Source: an uncultured Ruminiclostridium sp.
GTDB taxonomy: Bacteria > Bacillota > Clostridia > Oscillospirales > Ruminococcaceae
Assembly: GCA_947623915.1 (NCBI GenBank)
Contig: CANQIB010000008.1
Coordinates: forward strand, 1 to 64,000
Length of the DNA: 64,000 nt
Reading direction: 5' to 3'
Numbering within the stretch: the stretch's first letter is position 1; each line of letters starts with the position of its first letter. Positions 10,728 through 49,124 of this stretch are shown in pieces. Under the pieces are notes generated by a model. The model saw only the letters and a list, made by a program, of their open reading frames with translations. It was not told the origin of the DNA and made no database searches. Made by a program: the position numbers and the translations under genes.

Positions 10728-11384
10728 ATGGATGATAATTTAACGACTCCTCTGTCGTATATTTCACAGTATAATTATTGTAAAAGACGAGCGGCTCTTT
10801 TAATGATTGAGCGGTTATGGGACGAAAATTCGTATACGGCTATGGGACGAAACGAACATGATCATGTTCATACACCTGCCGCTGATCACAAATCAGACTG
10901 CATTGTCGTAACAGATATGCCTGTCTTTTCTGGGAAAATGCTTTTGTTCGGCAAGTGCGACGCTGTTGAAATGTATGAAGATGAAAACGGCTGCGTTATT
11001 TCGTTTTTGGACAACAAAAAATTTATTCCGTATCCGATTGAATATAAACACGGAGTTTTGCGCAATGAAACGGAATATGAACTCCAGCTATGCGCCCAAG
11101 CAATGTGCATTGAGGAGATGTTCGATTGTCATATAGATAAAGGCGCTGTTTTTTATATTACCTCGCACAGGCGGCGCGAAGTGTTTTTTGACGAAGAAAA
11201 AAGAAAAGCGGTTTATGAAACGGTGAAGCAACTCCGGAGTTTATTAAATTCGCAAACTGTTCCGCAGGCGGAATATTCTTCGAAATGCAAAAAATGTTCT
11301 CTTAATAATTTATGTATGCCGAACTTGGAAAAATCAGCAAAAAAATATATTACAATGATACACGGTTCGTTTAAGGAGGAGTAA
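10728..11384 (+). CDS. cas4: Cas4 nuclease (type I-C adaptation)
   Basis: RecB-like Fe-S nuclease that trims prespacers at the PAM and works with Cas1-Cas2 so that new spacers enter in the right orientation. The 218-aa protein has an N-terminal Cys (YNYCKRR), the nuclease motifs GKCDAVE and IEYKHG, the QLCAQAM helix, and a C-terminal cluster CKKCSLNNLC that completes the Fe-S site. ATG 10728 follows AAAGGAGG. The gene begins only 33 nt after the truncated last repeat, too little for a full promoter, so it probably depends on transcription through the array. Confidence 0.94.
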   Translation: MDDNLTTPLSYISQYNYCKRRAALLMIERLWDENSYTAMGRNEHDHVHTPAADHKSDCIVVTDMPVFSGKMLLFGKCDAVEMYEDENGCVISFLDNKKFIPYPIEYKHGVLRNETEYELQLCAQAMCIEEMFDCHIDKGAVFYITSHRRREVFFDEEKRKAVYETVKQLRSLLNSQTVPQAEYSSKCKKCSLNNLCMPNLEKSAKKYITMIHGSFKEE

Positions 11385-11385
11385 G

Positions 11386-12408
11386 ATGAAGAAACTCGGA
11401 AATGTGCTTTATATACTTTCGGAGGATAGTTATGTCTATTGCAAAAACGAAACCATTGCCGTGAAGATAAACGGTGAAGATAAGGCCCGCATACCTGCAC
11501 ATACCATAGAATCCATAGTTTTCCTAAAAAATACGACGGTATCAACGCCTCTTATCGGGTTTTGCGGAGAAAGAGGCATTTCTATTTCCTTTCATTTTGA
11601 CACCGGAAAATTCTATGGCCGATTTTATGGAGCGGTGAGCGGAAATGTACTTCTTAGAAAAAAGCAATATGATATTATAAACTCTGAACAGTCAGTTGAA
11701 ATCGTCCGCAATATTTTAAGCGGCAAGTTTGCCAACAGTCGATTTGTTTTACTGAAAAGTGCAAGGGATAATTCTCTCGATCGCGCTGAAAGATTAAAAC
11801 GCTCGGCGTCAATGATTGCGGAATATCACGAGAAACTTCTCAAAGCTGATAATATTGACAGCATGCGAGGAATTGAAGGCTTAACGGCAAATTGTTATTT
11901 TGATGCGTTTGATGAGATGCTGAAAAACAATGATAACGAAATGCGCTTTGAAAAAAGAAGTCGCCGTCCTCCCGATAATAGGATAAACGCGCTTTTGTCG
12001 TTCGTGTATATGCTGATGAAAAATGACACACAGTCGGCTTTGGAATCGGTCGGACTCGACCCGGCAGCCGGGTATTTGCACGCGCTTCGTCCCGGAAGAC
12101 CTTCTCTGGCCTTGGATATTATGGAGGAATTGAGGGCACCGCTTTGCGACAGATTTGTAATTTCACTTGTAAATTTAAAGCAGATAAGCTCTGATGATTT
12201 CAGCGTTAAAAACGGAGAAATAAAACTTACTGACAAAGCCTACAGGACTGTTATCGACAAATGGCAAGCAAGAAAAAAAGAAGAGATAACTCATCCGTTT
12301 TTAAAGGAAAAAGTTCCAATAGGCTTGATCCCATATTGTCAGGCAATGCTTTTGGCACGACATTTGCGTGGTGACCTTGATGTTTATCCCCCGTTTTTCT
12401 GGAGGTGA
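11386..12408 (+). CDS. cas1: Cas1 integrase (type I-C)
   Basis: Metal-dependent DNA integrase that inserts spacers at the leader end as a Cas1-Cas2 complex. The 340-aa protein has the N-terminal beta domain (MKKLGNVLYILSEDSYVY) and the catalytic C-terminal domain: Glu in RGIEG, His in YLHALRPGRPSLALD and the acidic DIMEE. It ends in HLRGDLDVYPPFFWR as other I-C Cas1 proteins do. It starts one base after the cas4 stop, behind AAGGAGGAG, so the two are co-translated. Confidence 0.96.
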   Translation: MKKLGNVLYILSEDSYVYCKNETIAVKINGEDKARIPAHTIESIVFLKNTTVSTPLIGFCGERGISISFHFDTGKFYGRFYGAVSGNVLLRKKQYDIINSEQSVEIVRNILSGKFANSRFVLLKSARDNSLDRAERLKRSASMIAEYHEKLLKADNIDSMRGIEGLTANCYFDAFDEMLKNNDNEMRFEKRSRRPPDNRINALLSFVYMLMKNDTQSALESVGLDPAAGYLHALRPGRPSLALDIMEELRAPLCDRFVISLVNLKQISSDDFSVKNGEIKLTDKAYRTVIDKWQARKKEEITHPFLKEKVPIGLIPYCQAMLLARHLRGDLDVYPPFFWR

Positions 12409-12412
12409 TATT

Positions 12413-12703
12413 ATGATGATGTTAGTGACGTATGACGTTGATTTCTCCGATGAAAAAGGCGCAAAACGTTTGCGCAAAGTTGCGGGGATATGTGAAAAAT
12501 TCGGCGTGAGAGTACAAAACTCGGTCTTTGAAATGCTTATCGACCCCGCACAATTAGCAGAGGTGAAAAGCAGGATCTCAAAAGTTATAGATCTGAAAGC
12601 GGATTCGGTGAGGTTTTATAATCTCGGTAAAAATTGGGAACGCCGCGTTGAAATTCTCGGAACTGACAAGGGGTTTGATCAGGAAGGTACCATCATTTTG
12701 TAA
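12413..12703 (+). CDS. cas2: Cas2 (type I-C)
   Basis: Small ferredoxin-fold protein that bridges two Cas1 dimers in the spacer-integration complex. The 96-aa product begins with the Cas2 strand MLVTYDVDF, whose Asp is conserved, and has the RVQNSVFEMLID segment. Three consecutive ATG codons follow GGAGGTGAT; the first, at 12413, is chosen, and a longer frame from 12368 overlapping cas1 is rejected. It ends the cas4-cas1-cas2 operon. No strong terminator directly follows. Confidence 0.95.
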   Translation: MMMLVTYDVDFSDEKGAKRLRKVAGICEKFGVRVQNSVFEMLIDPAQLAEVKSRISKVIDLKADSVRFYNLGKNWERRVEILGTDKGFDQEGTIIL

Positions 12704-15065: not shown

Positions 15066-15371
15066 TTTTTAAAATCCTCCTGTAATATTTTTTCCCGATA
15101 CGGTCGGGAATTGACCGAAATATACGAAAACATTTTTATTTTGCCGGACGGCAAAACTTCAAACGTTCCCGATTTTAACGGGTCGTTATCCCGTCAAAAT
15201 ACATGTAGCGTTACAGCTTTTTCCGTTTTTTTATCGGAAAGGCTTTTTTATCCCGCGTTAAGGCGGATTCTTTTTTATATTAGAACCTAAACAAGACGCC
15301 TTGCCTCTATAGTCGGCGGGGTCTATGTTCTTTGCGATTTTGATACGAGCAAAAAACCTTTCTTTATCGGT
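15066..15371. other. Gene-free stretch between YegP-like and Nudix genes
   Basis: About 305 nt without an ORF. It holds small hairpins: TTCCCGA/TCGGGAA just upstream of the YegP-like ribosome site, a TTTGCC/GGCAAA dyad near 15143-15153, and ACGGG/CCCGT near 15179-15197. Some of these probably belong to the 5' leader of the YegP-like gene. I see no attached RNA family. Confidence 0.4.
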
Positions 15372-15818
15372 TTAGACCTCTTCAAGCAACCGACAGCGCA
15401 ATTCATATAAAGCTGTTTTATTTGAATCCCAAGTCAGGCGCGCCATAGCGTCTTCATAACTCAGCCACTCATAACCGATGTGTTCATTGGATAACATTAT
15501 GTCTGAAACACATTCAAACGCGAAATGATATTCGGGAATAACATAGGTATTCTTTGCCCAATATTTCCGGTGTCGTTCCGAAATAACATTCGCGGGGATA
15601 TACGCCATGGAAGTCAGTTTTATAATACTGTTTGTTTTTATCCCCGTTTCTTCCGAAATTTCTCTGACCGCCGCCTCTGTCGGCGTTTCGTCATCTTCAC
15701 CGCCGCCGGCAAGAAACTGCCACTGATCCAAATCCGAGCGATGAAAAACACAAAACTCCATCTCTCTCGAAGCTGTTTTCCTGAAAGGAATTGCCAATAT
15801 CTGAAATGGTGCTCTCAA
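15372..15818 (-). CDS. Nudix hydrolase
   Basis: 148-aa pyrophosphohydrolase of the Nudix superfamily, which cleaves nucleoside diphosphates linked to another moiety. The Nudix box GGEDDETPTEAAVREISEETG fits GX5EX7REUXEEXGU with all catalytic Glu residues present, near residues 40-61. The overall form resembles NudB-type dihydroneopterin/dATP pyrophosphatases, but substrate cannot be told. Start is TTG 15818, 9 nt after GGAGG. It is the last of four single-gene units that share a repeated intergenic element. Confidence 0.88.
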   Translation of the reverse strand: MRAPFQILAIPFRKTASREMEFCVFHRSDLDQWQFLAGGGEDDETPTEAAVREISEETGIKTNSIIKLTSMAYIPANVISERHRKYWAKNTYVIPEYHFAFECVSDIMLSNEHIGYEWLSYEDAMARLTWDSNKTALYELRCRLLEEV

Positions 15819-15923
15819 CCTGTTAAACCTCCGCTAATCCCGATTTTCTGATTCAGTATACCGTAAATTTTGAGAAAGACAACCGTCTGCAAGTGATAAG
15901 CAGTTTTACACCGCAGGGGGTAA

Positions 15924-15999
15924 TTACACCGCAAAGGCGCACTTTTTAATTTTTCCTCTGCCTTGTATCAAATTCTGCAAGATTATATCAATGTTCATG
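15924..15999 (-). repeat. Cassette-type intergenic element, copy A
   Basis: Near copy of the elements at 16530, 17058 and 17610. It starts TTACACCGCAAAGGCGCAC on the plus strand and includes TTGTATCAAATTCTGCAAG. Copy A and copy C are alike over about 72 nt with only a few differences. A partial extra copy of the left end (TTTTACACCGCAGGGG) lies at 15904-15919. It is upstream of the Nudix gene and downstream of the DUF3795 gene. Confidence 0.8.
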
Positions 16000-16049
16000 C
16001 TTATTTTGATACAACAGGAAAAAATCTTTATGTTTTGGTAAACAGGAAA

Positions 16050-16424
16050 TTATTTTTTTCCTGTTTTGATAAATTCGATTAAATCCTCCACATCATGAAA
16101 ATCATCATAATCGCCATAAATTCCATTCCGATGATAAGCAACGCCTGCTTTTTCATTCCGTTCAAGGCAGTCTAAAAGTTCTTTTTCGCCGTATCTTTTG
16201 ATAAACAAGGTGAATCCATAAGGTTTGATTTTGGATAGCAATCCTCTTCTGCATTCCGTTTTACATTCATGACAATGTGTATAATTTTTCTCAATGGAAC
16301 ATTTTCTGTTTTCGCACCAGTCCTTGTCAGGGCATTCTCCCGAATTGCACCCGCTGCAATGTTCATTTTCGCTGCATAAGCAGCATGCCAGTCCACAGCG
16401 TGCTATTCCCAGTTCCCGTTTCAT
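16050..16424 (-). CDS. DUF3795 cysteine-rich protein
   Basis: 124 aa; the first 60 residues carry about a dozen Cys in CxxC-like spacings (CGLACCLCSENEHCSGC, CPDKDWC, CHECKTEC), the hallmark of DUF3795, presumably a zinc-binding domain. The C-terminal half is helical and acidic. The biochemical role of the family is unknown. ATG 16424 follows GGAGAAAATTAA. Single-gene unit between repeat copies A and B. Confidence 0.85.
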   Translation of the reverse strand: MKRELGIARCGLACCLCSENEHCSGCNSGECPDKDWCENRKCSIEKNYTHCHECKTECRRGLLSKIKPYGFTLFIKRYGEKELLDCLERNEKAGVAYHRNGIYGDYDDFHDVEDLIEFIKTGKK

Positions 16425-16529
16425 TTAATTTTCTCCTATAAATCCATATTCATTGCGCGAGTATATGTCCGCCCTTTAATCAGCCATACCAAAAATGTAT
16501 ATAACTAAGCCGCTGCACATCACCCGACA

Positions 16530-16590
16530 CACATTTTACACCGAAAAGACACACTTTTGGGTTTTCCTCGGCTTTGTATCAAACTTAAAT
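16530..16590 (-). repeat. Cassette-type intergenic element, copy B
   Basis: Starts ACACATTTTACACCG on the plus strand and shares TTTTCCTCGGCTTTGTATC with the other copies. Its right end stops exactly at the GNAT stop codon (16591-16593), so the distal third seen in copies A and C (CTGCAAGAT...) is missing here. Confidence 0.75.
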
Positions 16591-17028
16591 CTAGTTCAGC
16601 CATTGGATGAAAGCCGTCTTATCTGTGCTGTTATATCCCGCATTACTGTAAAATCTCAAAGTCGAATCATTTTTCGCGCCGGTAAGCAACATAATTTTAT
16701 AACAATTTTCTCTTTCTGCGATCCCTTTAGCATAATTTAAACATTCGGTCGCATATCCCTTTTTTCTAAAATCTCTGTGAGTAACAACGTTCTCGATCAA
16801 GGCGTATGGTCTTATATTTCTTGTCAAATTGGGAATGATCACGCATACGCAGGAAGAAACGATTTTTTCACCGATTACATTAACGATAATATGATGATTT
16901 TTATCACGGATAATATCTTTCCATGTATTCATCAAATATTCCGTATTTTCGGGGATGGATACTTCGTGCAGAAATAAATACAATTCCAACAACTCATACA
17001 ATTCGTTTTCTCTGATTTCTCTGACCAT
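16591..17028 (-). CDS. GNAT-family N-acetyltransferase
   Basis: 145 aa. GNAT core: the acetyl-CoA pyrophosphate loop THRDFRKKGYATECL (R/QxxGxG/A form, here RKKGYA) near residues 89-102, and a C-terminal FYSNAGYNSTDKTAF strand. The acceptor substrate cannot be predicted. ATG 17028 is preferred over an upstream in-frame TTG at 17040, though neither has a strong ribosome site. Single-gene unit between repeat copies B and C on the same strand as its neighbours. Confidence 0.87.
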   Translation of the reverse strand: MVREIRENELYELLELYLFLHEVSIPENTEYLMNTWKDIIRDKNHHIIVNVIGEKIVSSCVCVIIPNLTRNIRPYALIENVVTHRDFRKKGYATECLNYAKGIAERENCYKIMLLTGAKNDSTLRFYSNAGYNSTDKTAFIQWLN

Positions 17029-17057
17029 AACAAATCTCAACTTTCAGCTATCAGCAA

Positions 17058-17131
17058 CATACACCGCAAAGGCGCACTTTTTAGTTTTCTCCTGCTTTGT
17101 ATCAAACTCTGCAAGATCATATCTATGTTCG
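17058..17131 (-). repeat. Cassette-type intergenic element, copy C
   Basis: Full-length copy: ATACACCGCAAAGGCGCAC on the plus strand through TTGTATCAAACTCTGCAAG to TATGTTC. It lies between the TfoX-like stop and the GNAT start and is the closest match to copy A. Confidence 0.8.
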
Positions 17132-17168
17132 ATTGTGATAAAAACAGAAAAATGCTGACTCACCACTT

Positions 17169-17513
17169 TTATTCCGATGAGGTTTTATTTACCTTTTTCT
17201 TCTTTTTAGGCTTTGATTCGGGTAACTCGTCATACATTGCCGTAAACAAACCTGTTAAAAACTCTCTGTTGTCAACTTCATCTACCAACAACATTCCTTT
17301 TGCTCCCTCATAGGGTAATTCATACGAAGCTGTTGGCATATAGCTGATCGCTGCTTTAATTGGTTTTACAAGTAATCTGTCATCATAGATACCGCCTATG
17401 ATTTTGCCGCGATAATAGATGATAAATTCTCCCATCATAGCCCGATATGTAATTTCATCCAATTCGGATAACTGCCCTAAAATAAATTCTAAATATTCTT
17501 TACTCGATGCCAT
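17169..17513 (-). CDS. TfoX N-terminal domain protein
   Basis: 114 aa. The core MASSKEYLEFILGQLSELDE, then ITYRAMMGEFIIYYRGKIIG and DDRLLVKP, is the TfoX N-terminal domain. Free-standing versions are common in Firmicutes and of unclear function, distinct from the full competence regulator TfoX/Sxy. The C-terminus is a Lys-rich tail (KPKKKKKVNK). ATG 17513 follows GAGGTGG; the upstream TTG at 17525 is less likely. Single-gene unit between repeat copies C and D. Confidence 0.85.
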   Translation of the reverse strand: MASSKEYLEFILGQLSELDEITYRAMMGEFIIYYRGKIIGGIYDDRLLVKPIKAAISYMPTASYELPYEGAKGMLLVDEVDNREFLTGLFTAMYDELPESKPKKKKKVNKTSSE

Positions 17514-17609
17514 ATTCCACCTCAAATCTCGATTTATCGGTCGGACACATTCACTTCCAATAAATCATACCACAAAATCGTGAATAAATCTACCGCTATT
17601 AACTCGTCA

Positions 17610-17680
17610 CACATTTTACACCCCATAGGCGCGCTTTTTGATCGGCTTGATATCAAGGTCTGCAAGATAATTTTCTGCCC
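17610..17680 (-). repeat. Cassette-type intergenic element, copy D
   Basis: Most divergent copy: ACACATTTTACACCCCATAG, then GGCGCGCTTTTTGATCGGC, GATATCAAGGTCTGCAAGAT. It shares the ACACATTTTACACC left end with copy B and the CTGCAAGAT right end with copies A and C. It lies between the truncated adhesin and the TfoX-like gene. Confidence 0.7.
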
Positions 17681-17736
17681 TTATTAGAGAATATTTTAGC
17701 ATATTTTGTCTAAGATGTCAATCGTGCTTAAAATTT

Positions 17737-20403: not shown

Positions 20404-21288
20404 TCATTCCTTGCTCAGCAGTTTAGAATAAGAGAATTGTAAAATGCTTTCGTATCTTTGTTTTATTATGACTTTGTAAAACTGCTTTTGTACATCGCTT
20501 ATTACCGATATTCCATCTATAATTTTTTCAATGCGGTTTATATTGATCTTTGGGAAAATATTTTTTAGCGCCTTGTTACATCCCTCATTAGCACACAGAG
20601 AAATAAAATTGAAATAATTTATTCGTTTGCCGTTTATTACTATCGCGGAGGTAGGGCGATTATATACTCGGTCGTTCAGTTCGTTCTTTTTAGACAAAAC
20701 ACTTAGCATGATCGACTCATCCGCTTGAGGGAACAGGCAGCTCCCGCAATCGTAAACGGGCGCAAGAGAGAGCTTGTCGGTAAAAGTGTTATATAAAAAT
20801 CCCCAGTTGCCGTTGTGTCTGTCCCAATTTCCTATTAGAGCGTCAACAATAAACATATTCCAAAATCGCTCTGACAACTCTTCGCGGTCTATTGCGCTTT
20901 GCTTGTCCAATGTATCGAGTATATCGTTTAGTTCCGTTCCATATCCTTGATGACCCGAATCGATGATATGATTTTTCAGAGAAACAAAGTCTTGCAGGAC
21001 AACCCCCGTAGAAGTAAAATCTTTGCAGGCAGCAACTACTGTTTGTCCGCGGGAAGTCGTATAAGTGCCGAGCGATACTTCCTGCACAGGTATGCCGACA
21101 CTTTCAAAAATCTTGCAGCCTAAATATTCGGAAATACAGCTGTTAGTATAACTCAAATCGGCGTTTTTAGTAACTACGGCAGGAAATTTTAACATATATA
21201 CTTCGTTATTGTATGATACGGAAATTTTCTTACCGTTCGCGCCGTCGTAACATTTATGGAGCGTTGGCAAATCAGTAAAATCGATCAT
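20404..21288 (-). CDS. HipA/CtkA-like Ser/Thr kinase
   Basis: 294 aa with the HipA C-terminal kinase fold: a nucleotide-binding Lys in YMLKFP near residue 34, the catalytic loop GNWDRHNGNWGF near 153, and the metal-binding APVYDCGSCLF near 177. There is no HipA N-terminal domain, as in compact CtkA-type kinases. HipA kinases act as growth-arresting toxins by phosphorylating translation factors or tRNA synthetases; the target here is unknown. It starts 4 nt after the nucleotidyltransferase stop with the ribosome site AAAGGA inside that gene, so the two are co-translated. Confidence 0.85.
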   Translation of the reverse strand: MIDFTDLPTLHKCYDGANGKKISVSYNNEVYMLKFPAVVTKNADLSYTNSCISEYLGCKIFESVGIPVQEVSLGTYTTSRGQTVVAACKDFTSTGVVLQDFVSLKNHIIDSGHQGYGTELNDILDTLDKQSAIDREELSERFWNMFIVDALIGNWDRHNGNWGFLYNTFTDKLSLAPVYDCGSCLFPQADESIMLSVLSKKNELNDRVYNRPTSAIVINGKRINYFNFISLCANEGCNKALKNIFPKININRIEKIIDGISVISDVQKQFYKVIIKQRYESILQFSYSKLLSKE

Positions 21289-21292
21289 TTTA

Positions 21293-22204
21293 CTAATTCC
21301 TTTCTAATCCTAAATACTTTTCTCTCAGATACCACGCCTGTTCTGTGGTGATCAGTTGTTCTGTCTCAGCTATATTTATATTACTTTGAAGTTCACAGAA
21401 ATCGCAGTCAAACTGCATATACGGTATCCCTTTTTCATGTTTTTCCCACGCGGCTTTCATCTGCTCTATTGATTGCCGCAAAAACGGCGGCAGTCCGCAC
21501 TCCAAATATCCTTTATCTATCGGCAGCCCGGTCGTTTCGTCATATTCTTTGATATATTCTTTAATTAGTTCATTTTCATTACCGTCAGTCTGAAGTCCTA
21601 TCTTTTCGATTGCGGACAAAAATAGATCCAGCAATTTTTTCTTATTTATTAACTTGTCCGGGTGGTTGTAAACAAGATAATAATATTGTTCTATACCCTT
21701 AGCGGAAATCGTATCAAAGATAAAATTTTTGGTTTGTTCCGATAAACGGTCGTAATAATTGCAGCAAATGAAAGACAGATCATACATATCCCTCATTTTG
21801 TCACGAGAAGCATATGCGCTGCACTTCATTGATGCCAAACGCTCAATGGTGTAAACAATTATTCCGTTTATTTTTACATATTCTTTAGGTTCTATTACAT
21901 TTTTTCGGCATGACACTTCTATTTTAAGAGGTTTTGCACCGCCATAGCGGATCATACACCGTTTTAATGTATCGGTGTTTTTATCTTCTCTATAATCGTA
22001 TGAATTGCCTTTGCAATAGCGGTCAATCAAATCAAAAATTAAATTTTCGTTTCCGTCTAAATATATATCTTCTGAAAATCTGTCAAGATTATAACATTGT
22101 CTTAGCGCCGTGCCGCCTTTAAGAATATATGAACTTGTATTTTTATATAAAAATTGTAAAAAATCGCTTATTACTTGTTCCTGTTTCCTTGCTTGATCTT
22201 CCAT
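21293..22204 (-). CDS. AbiEii/AbiGii-type nucleotidyltransferase, DxD altered
   Basis: 303-aa member of the AbiEii/MenT nucleotidyltransferase toxins, which transfer nucleotides to tRNA or other targets. The N-terminal core LKGGTALRQCYNLDRFSEDI carries the GG and Ser-x-Asp features, and the third acidic residue may be Glu in LKIEVSC. The next residues are YLD where the family has DxD, so the second metal-binding Asp appears replaced by Tyr (TAT, one base from GAT). The rest is helical, with a Cys-containing C-terminal domain. It overlaps the upstream gene by 34 nt and is tightly followed by the HipA-like kinase. Confidence 0.85.
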   Translation of the reverse strand: MEDQARKQEQVISDFLQFLYKNTSSYILKGGTALRQCYNLDRFSEDIYLDGNENLIFDLIDRYCKGNSYDYREDKNTDTLKRCMIRYGGAKPLKIEVSCRKNVIEPKEYVKINGIIVYTIERLASMKCSAYASRDKMRDMYDLSFICCNYYDRLSEQTKNFIFDTISAKGIEQYYYLVYNHPDKLINKKKLLDLFLSAIEKIGLQTDGNENELIKEYIKEYDETTGLPIDKGYLECGLPPFLRQSIEQMKAAWEKHEKGIPYMQFDCDFCELQSNINIAETEQLITTEQAWYLREKYLGLERN

Positions 22205-48863: not shown

Positions 48864-49124
48864 AATATATAAAAGCGTTGATTGGGAGAAAAGCCTTTAT
48901 TCGACATTCAGAGAGCCGGCGTTTGGTGCAAGACGGCTGCGGAGAAAGGAAATGACTCGCCCAAGAGCTGCGCGGCTGAAAATTTACAGTAGGCTGCGAC
49001 GGGGGCTCCCGTTATAGAGTAACACATTGTTTGATGTGGTTGAGGTGCGGTGTGTGAGCATTGCATGAATTGAAGTGGTAACACGGGTATAAGCTCGTCT
49101 TCTGTACGGAAGGCGGGCTTTTTT
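48864..49124 (+). ncRNA. T-box leader, probably leucine-specific
   Basis: Stem I with AG bulge (AGAGAGCCGG), then the conserved AGTAGG (48988-48993) and CGGG...CCCGTTA block, the T-box GAAGTGGTAACACGGG (49072-49087), and a terminator AGCTCGTCTTC/GGAAGGCGGGCT with T-run to 49124. The UGGU in the T-box pairs with an NCCA end having A73, as in tRNA-Leu. A CTC triplet at 48956-48958 sits where the specifier should be (Leu). Uncharged tRNA-Leu would stabilise the antiterminator and switch on leuA. Confidence 0.9.

Follow-up and report, generated by a model that had tools for sequence, protein, structure and literature searches.

The stretch analysed here (the window) comprises 64,000 nucleotides, positions 1 to 64,000 of the forward strand of contig CANQIB010000008.1 from an uncultured Ruminiclostridium sp. 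(GenBank assembly GCA_947623915.1, genome G000 below), and carries on its minus strand an array of four one-gene units with copies of a short element, lettered A to D, in the gaps. All four units and element copies were found where a first-pass annotation, made by a model from the sequence, had placed them. The features of the array, in the direction of transcription and with site parts named as described further below, are as follows.

17693..17721, minus strand: promoter-like site upstream of the array, TTGACA-N17-TAAAAT, with TG preceding the second hexamer
15322..17683, minus strand: whole cassette array with its four one-gene units, bounded by left end D and the free right end past the Nudix gene
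17615..17683, minus strand: element D, marking the left end of unit 1, with most of the arm retained and AA instead of GA as core
17169..17525, minus strand: unit 1 gene, TfoX_N-like protein, 118 aa (just below the Pfam cut-off)
17060..17148, minus strand: composite site C, right arm degenerate, GA core at 17123-17122, left arm and left-end motif intact
16591..17040, minus strand: unit 2 gene, GNAT acetyltransferase, 149 aa (Pfam)
16536..16587, minus strand: element B, degenerate, outer left arm and left-end motif retained, without core and without right arm
16050..16424, minus strand: unit 3 gene, Cys-rich 124-aa protein (labelled DUF3795 in the first-pass annotation)
15924..16014, minus strand: composite site A, intact, right arm 16014-15990, GA 15989-15988, left arm 15987-15963, left-end motif to 15924
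15372..15818, minus strand: unit 4 gene, Nudix hydrolase, 148 aa (Pfam)
15322..15348, minus strand: free right end of the array, right arm 15348-15324, GA 15323-15322, then host DNA CCCCGCC

Among the gene labels first assigned, Nudix and GNAT were confirmed with Pfam, TfoX_N scored just under its cut-off (29.5 versus 30.1), and DUF3795 is kept as a label only, since no Pfam or NCBIfam model matches the 124-aa protein; units similar to that of the 124-aa gene occur at loci L027, L023, L077, L257, L314 and L239. Elements A and C, reported to match over about 72 nt, do have approximately 70 nt in common, and element B, thought to abut a stop codon exactly, lies close to one, its match beginning 3 nt past the GNAT stop codon with the core and half of the left arm missing. 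Only site A has the intact composite architecture (right arm, GA, left arm) in the window; this architecture and the free right end past the Nudix gene had escaped the first-pass annotation. The adjoining adhesin, taken as truncated at a likely insertion point, measures 279 aa, against 669 aa for an open reading frame (ORF) with DNA similarity in a sister genome, which fits truncation; the break does not fall exactly at an element. The promoter-like site may read into the array, and sites of this kind were not enriched in the scanned region of the window (8 found versus 8.1 expected).

The possibility, raised at the outset, that the element is a common genome-wide repeat was addressed with a 22-nt core pattern (up to 3 mismatches), which gave exactly 4 matches in the 64 kb and 0 in 100 dinucleotide shuffles, and with an element sequence model built from 14 copies, 4 of them from the window. 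At E≤1e-10 this model gave 6 matches in the whole of G000, the 4 of the array plus the contig-end copy on C2 and the copy on C25. With only these two left ends outside it, the array has most copies of this rare element, which is no abundant repeat of the genome.

Alignment of sister-species copies placed the conserved block at the left end of a unit, consisting of a 25-nt arm, TATAATCTTGCAGAGTTTGATACAA, and a conserved motif of about 40 nt ending in GTGCGCCTTTGCGGTGTAA, while the preceding unit terminates in a 25-nt right arm, TTGTATCAAAATCGCAAAGAACATA. Right and left arms are inverted repeats about GA, and an intact junction is a 52-bp dyad of right arm, GA core and left arm. For 13 left and 14 right arms chosen by hand, the mean identity between the left arm and the reverse-complemented right arm was 16.2/25, against a mean of 7.1 in 2000 column permutations, none of which was as high (0/2000). 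The core was then mapped at 109 loci from genome and viral scans, with left ends accepted at E≤1e-8; 7 of the loci came from genus genomes, 106 had been retrieved with a 21-nt pattern containing neither arm nor core (2 viral loci came by this route), and the other 3 with an arm pattern. GA precedes 114 of 122 mapped left ends, a count in which the left-end profile may favour GA somewhat, as it includes the core columns. A right arm stands at the exact expected offset in 42 left ends, no other offset between -12 and +12 having more than 3, and the core is GA in 42/42 composite sites; seven duplicate loci (L238, L240, L244, L250, L256, L294 and L308) are retained in these core counts. By its sequence features, the site is a dyad of the large serine recombinase (LSR) type about a 2-nt core, with only the core common to target and unit. 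A right-arm variant, TTGTATCAAYGAGAGAGTTTACATA, recurs at L192:6655-6691, L029/L238 and L146 (G000 C5, G030 and G035 rlmL), and may mark a cassette sub-family.

Comparisons between genomes (with gene names taken from the sequence itself, except for genes that were scanned) placed unit boundaries at the GA dinucleotide. Copies of the window's Nudix unit in G018 and G029 show 94-95% identity to it, which breaks off sharply at both ends, and the neighbours differ. In G018 its right end is joined to rlmL inside the codons DPFCGSGT, and with an intact rlmL copy upstream as reference, the intact copy reads GTGTGC GA CCCGTTTTG and the junction AACATA GA CCCGTTTTG, target and unit having GA alone in common. 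This locus (L022:5561-9184) contains a complete rlmL, followed some 2 kb later by another 3' part that is 95% identical, with the Nudix cassette, a dCTP-deaminase-like gene and an exonuclease-like fragment (the latter two read by eye) between them. A second rlmL junction of like form, with a different right-arm variant, is present in G035 (L146), and was also picked up as a weak R2 match. Between pfkA and bioY, G005 and G094 carry one unit, that of the 124-aa gene, ending AACACA GA CCCGCCCTRCAAAACG (CCCGCCC), and G029, whose flank is 95-96% identical to theirs, carries this unit plus GNAT and Nudix units placed exactly at that GA. At nspC, G029 has one HIT cassette more than G005 at a like insertion point, with GA at both HIT ends, although the sole core of G005 reads TA. 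Between fbpA and valS, G005 and G029 have different units inside the same boundaries, and G094 has other content.

In both empty/filled pairs (pfkA-bioY and nspC, 2/2) the extra units stand at the 3' end of the array, where we infer that they were added. Unit order, which might have proved fixed across related genomes, is not; the same units recur in different orders and at different loci, and single units are gained or lost at one dinucleotide, in agreement with the earlier proposal of a Firmicutes cassette system that uses a site other than attC. A further target was found in G000, where the 5' half of a type IIG restriction-methylase gene ends ..ATA GA and then meets a left end at the terminus of contig C2, and the 3' half starts after a right end on C9 with GA TTATGCATGCGG; as the halves are on different contigs, their joining is presumed. 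Insertion sites seen thus comprise rlmL, the type IIG restriction-modification gene, hsdM-like genes and intergenic sites. At L070:460-672 in G092, an element seems to interrupt the N-terminal coding region of an LSR gene.

Ends of the same kind were found on phages. Phage-type left ends lie 0.1-3 kb from tandem LSRs, and in Anaeromassilibacillus An172 both ends of a 55.7-kb prophage with a GA core are visible, the left reading ..GGCAGTATTTTA GA and the right GAACATA GA GCCGTCCTGCGG. The prophage splits a gene with the codons GSILE/PSCGTGNF (slash at the split), a methyltransferase-type motif by eye, and encodes in its interior two LSRs (523 and 595 aa) that have resolvase, recombinase and zinc-ribbon domains. 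Phage PV036426.1 ('Ca. Heliusvirales') has an LSR 99.6% identical and terminates in both arms plus GA, as the An172 prophage does. Within the genus of the window, G018 encodes a pair of LSRs with 63% and 48% identity; a right-type arm, TTGTATCAAATTAGACACGGCAACA GA, lies 4.4 kb away from the pair and is joined to the hsdM-like codons TDPAMGSAGF. Viral contigs were scanned with the 523-aa LSR as query, using the best 80 of 470 relatives, not dereplicated, of which 63 had at least 300 bp downstream. Downstream of the LSR, the arm followed by N16 and the core TC (GA on the other strand) was present in 36/63 loci, any other dinucleotide in at most 6, the arm with CT in 1, and TC on the opposite strand in 3. 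The arms at L403 and L420 are one base off the cassette arm. The related phage phi1207.3, whose LSR is 55% identical, integrates at a GA dinucleotide and duplicates it (PMC4260502).

Across the viral LSR loci L397-L473, repeated integration was observed at GA inside apparent conserved methyltransferase motif codons, in targets read as hsdM-like, mod-like and helicase-methylase genes. Many flanks read NKVY/D, GRVY/D, KMIYI/D or GNIL/E, strings which we take to be codons of named DNA-methyltransferase motifs. Next to the right ends, genes for Hachiman (HamA and HamB, PADLOC) and type I HsdR lie directly inside the right end on G000 C9 (L156:10057-16846), and a HamB-like helicase gene (by eye) lies near the right end of the An172 prophage (L342, contig 165347-167980). 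In these phages, the right end may serve as a place where defence genes are carried.

The spread of the element was surveyed with the exact 21-nt motif pattern in 84,980 species genomes, giving 104 stretches, 92 of them in rabbit-gut ('Lapin') metagenome-assembled genomes (MAGs) from 80 bins (by title, counted by hand), a count not corrected for the share of rabbit-derived genomes in the scanned collection. Seven of the rabbit-gut stretches belong to the genus of the window, and the remaining 12/104 all have the phage-type arm AATAATC... Carrier names include Clostridia, Lachnospiraceae, Oscillospiraceae, Acetatifactor, Ruminococcus, Eisenbergiella, Peptococcaceae, Phascolarctobacterium and Bacilli, assignments in which single contigs of MAGs are possibly misbinned; several MAG contigs also end within elements, hiding the far side of many insertions. 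Among the genus genomes, 8/71 were counted as element carriers (E<1e-8); at the looser limits of 0.01 and 0.05, matches came up in 14/71 and 30/71, of which the weak R1 and R2 matches in other species of the genus were discounted.

A census of closed cassettes, including the genus loci and after dropping the same seven duplicate loci, which repeat genus genomes, gave 53 cassettes at 38 loci, with a median length of 732 bp (n=53). The longest ORF runs in the cassette direction in all 50 of the 53 cassettes that have an ORF of at least 60 aa (50/50). Gene kinds by Pfam are Nudix, GNAT, RibD_C, MazG, HIT and methyltransferase, with TfoX_N and alkyltransferase-like matches just below the cut-offs. 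The Nudix cassette is present in seven genomes including that of the window (89-98% nucleotide identity in all listed pairs), and has no match among 72,556 plasmids; the RibD_C-like cassette of G005 has a counterpart of 95% identity in a MAG named Lachnospiraceae. No closed cassette holds a complete LSR, and L303 alone holds a 46-aa C-terminal LSR piece. Similar rabbit-type C-terminal pieces were observed in or near units at L303:5195-5338, L317:5480-5734, L231:1986-2153 and L244:1737-2026, and the full-length gene behind them was not found. A promoter in each cassette was considered and dropped, as the best promoter-like score in 42 non-redundant cassettes was hardly above that in shuffles (8.5 versus 8.30, with 11/200 shuffles as high). 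A group II intron, whose 5' end the motif GTGCGCC..GGTGTAA resembles, was also rejected, there being no Rfam match at gathering thresholds in the window or L008, and genes, not introns, after the window elements.

The unit boundaries, the near-fixed GA, insertions exact at the core, sharing among loci and taxa, and ends and targets in common with LSR prophages are observed. We consider it likely (probability about 0.77) that the array consists of gene cassettes which are non-autonomous, are mobilised in trans by LSRs of phages and accumulate at attR. Each cassette has a left end, usually one gene in the same direction, and a right arm, with GA at every junction; as a circle (right arm-GA-left arm) it would present an attP-like site for phage LSRs, namely tandem pairs from a temperate gut phage family whose prophages end in the same arms. 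Acting in trans, such a pair would carry out strand exchange at GA, either with an attB-like site, which often lies in methyltransferase-motif codons, or with the attR of a resident cassette, in which case the array would grow at its 3' end. Integration at scattered targets and at resident attR would explain both the arrays and their 3' growth. Circle formation and LSR action on the cassettes are predictions of this scheme, and transfer between cells probably occurs with phages. The cassettes have the look of minimal elements made up of the phage attachment ends plus a single gene. Since few carriers have a close LSR, the cassettes of most carriers are probably idle until a suitable phage comes. 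The earlier interpretation as a cassette system is supported, with its mechanism refined to a phage LSR-type site; as for the enzyme expected to be linked to the arrays, no arm scoring at least 17 was found at the scanned recombinases of the genus, and the likely enzyme would come from prophages that have the same ends.

Several observations weigh against this reading. The window genome has one PF07508 gene and no LSR of the phage family at E≤1e-60, and since elements B and D are degenerate, the window array may be partly frozen. Among genomes with cassettes or left ends, 15/22 have an LSR match at this threshold, few of them close: close LSRs are confined to G018 (63%), G112 (60%), G102 (54%) and a 187-aa stretch in G117 (76%), and the further matches listed are 34-49% identical. 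As close LSRs occur in so few carriers, our estimate was lowered from 0.80 to 0.77. No arm scoring at least 17 was present in 34 LSR stretches (30 of 53 PF07508 matches, some also taken wider) or at 30 tyrosine-recombinase loci of the genus genomes, in a scan that also missed the arm-GA-hsdM junction of G018, found later by reading. At the LSR loci of G112, G117 and G102 (L364-L367) there is a single arm-plus-TC match, on the wrong strand. Among viral LSR loci, the arm is missing at the tested stringency in 27/63, the full left-end motif (E≤1e-4) is present in only 6/77, and over whole loci the arm goes with CT almost as often as with TC (38 versus 42 of 77); the exact 21-nt motif is present in 2 viral contigs. 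Canonical LSRs usually do not join attP to attR without a directionality factor, and accretion at attR would therefore require a relaxed enzyme or such a factor.

Other recombinases of the genus were rejected as the linked enzyme, as no arm (score at least 17) was found at the scanned LSR and tyrosine loci, nor near a short PF07508 recombinase of about 310 aa (G005, G029 and G092, with a weaker relative in G035). The tyrosine recombinases at L070 are on the same contig as one element, the one that interrupts the LSR-like gene.

That the units are true integron cassettes (a cluster of attC sites lacking integron integrases, CALIN) of an unusual integron, their attC sites recombined by the tyrosine recombinase IntI via the folded bottom strand, is very unlikely. 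Single small genes in one direction and of the integron kind would fit, and a junction with 2-3 nt in common is also compatible with single-strand integron recombination. The dyad also folds better than shuffles (-2.28 kcal/mol), yet the strands fold alike (top -7.93, bottom -7.88 kcal/mol, 25/41 distinct sites), and the asymmetry of attC is missing. In line with the first-pass annotation, the attC core pair RYYYAAC..GTTRRRY was found in 0/42 composite contexts, a zero that says only that none is present, because shuffles give a mean of just 0.35. Extra units stand at the 3' end in both pairs and not beside attI, and of 10 PF00589 matches in G000, the 2 scanned with NCBIfam fall far under the integron integrase cut-offs.

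Derivatives of a terminal inverted repeat transposon (mobile insertion cassettes), with a DDE transposase, a 2-bp GA target duplication and arrays built by insertion at resident ends, are improbable. Terminal inverted 25-nt arms, closed cassettes without a complete recombinase, and GA on both sides, which would resemble a 2-bp duplication, are all as such a transposon would have them, but GA is not palindromic, and a transposon should yield TC about half the time, whereas the polarity of GA relative to the ends is nearly fixed (114/122 left ends, 42/42 composite sites); the same ends also bound LSR prophages, a related phage uses GA, and a systematic transposase search was not made. It is also unlikely that the units are decayed prophages, deleted between their ends down to one accessory gene and spread by homologous recombination via the 70-nt repeat. 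The LSR C-terminal pieces in or near units at L303, L317, L231 and L244 and the Hachiman genes adjoining a right end of the window genome are what decay would leave, but one complete cassette with the same ends recurs in seven genomes, and in rlmL and between conserved genes the insertions fall precisely at GA and have no further homology. Decay is compatible with phage LSR-driven movement as the origin of the cassettes, not as the whole mechanism.

The arrays share with integron cassettes and CALINs (PMC8618304) tandem same-direction one-gene units with one common recombination site and similar gene kinds, exchange across distant hosts in one habitat, and arrays without a linked recombinase. 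They differ in that the site is a symmetric GA-core dyad of serine-recombinase type in which no attC core pair was found, in that the extra units stand at the 3' end (2/2 pairs) and no attI platform was seen, and in their insertion at scattered chromosomal sites. As with cis-mobilizable elements (CIMEs) and tandem accretion (PMC5704250), the units are att-flanked and without integration genes, and an incoming element enters a resident attR. By retaining attL and attR and lacking recombination genes, the cassettes largely match what defines a CIME, and their median length of 732 bp would leave little room for transfer genes, for which no dedicated search was made. Unlike CIMEs, they comprise about one gene, occur singly at different loci and taxa, and have as likely partner a phage LSR, not the integrase of an integrative and conjugative element (ICE) or an integrative and mobilizable element; the LSR remnants in or near units of four loci point to phages, not ICEs.

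Among LSR systems, staphylococcal and enterococcal cassette chromosomes (SCC/ECC) with CcrAB are alike in their LSR pair, att sites in a methyltransferase gene (rlmH) and variable cargo (PMC6222049). They carry their own ccr and sit in rlmH, whereas the present cassettes have no complete recombinase and sites elsewhere, and the present LSR scores 137 bits versus a CcrB cut-off of 900. The streptococcal phi1207.3/Tn1207.1 has tandem LSRs and integrates at GA with its duplication (PMC4260502), and among 'Ca. Heliusvirales' phages PV036426.1 carries the same ends as the cassettes; unlike the cassettes, both are full phages of roughly 50-60 kb. A term search of the Ca. Heliusviridae paper (PMC9226167) gave no occurrence of serine recombinase, integrase or attachment site. 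Full-text searches of open-access papers, with subscription papers and preprints outside their reach, showed no description of such cassettes. Two further transposons resemble the present system. Tn4451 (TnpX) and Tn5397 (TndX) use a large serine recombinase and a GA core; unlike the present cassettes, they encode their own recombinase and do not form cassette arrays.

Elsewhere in the window, ORFs resembling Cas4, Cas1 and Cas2 of a type I CRISPR system lie at 10728-12703 and a HipA-like ORF adjoins an AbiEii-like ORF at 20404-22204 (both by-eye readings), and a T-box leader was found at 48869-49105 (Rfam RF00230, 113 bits).

Integrons are a well-described system for collecting single genes as interchangeable cassettes. 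It is reasonably likely that gut Clostridia have a second, integron-like but unrelated economy of many one-gene cassettes, in which the attP of a phage LSR would be the cassette site, lysogeny would switch exchange on, and methyltransferase genes (of restriction systems, and rlmL) and earlier cassettes would be the landing sites; its reach would extend to Phascolarctobacterium and a Bacilli MAG if the binning is right. The 52-bp sites and GA-core tandem LSRs are directly testable parts of this proposal. The preference that the phage family shows for codons of methyltransferase motifs, many of them in restriction systems, deserves attention in its own right. If the proposal is true, the integration chemistry of a phage can by itself give rise to a cassette economy, and gut Clostridia would trade metabolic, repair and stress genes without an integron.

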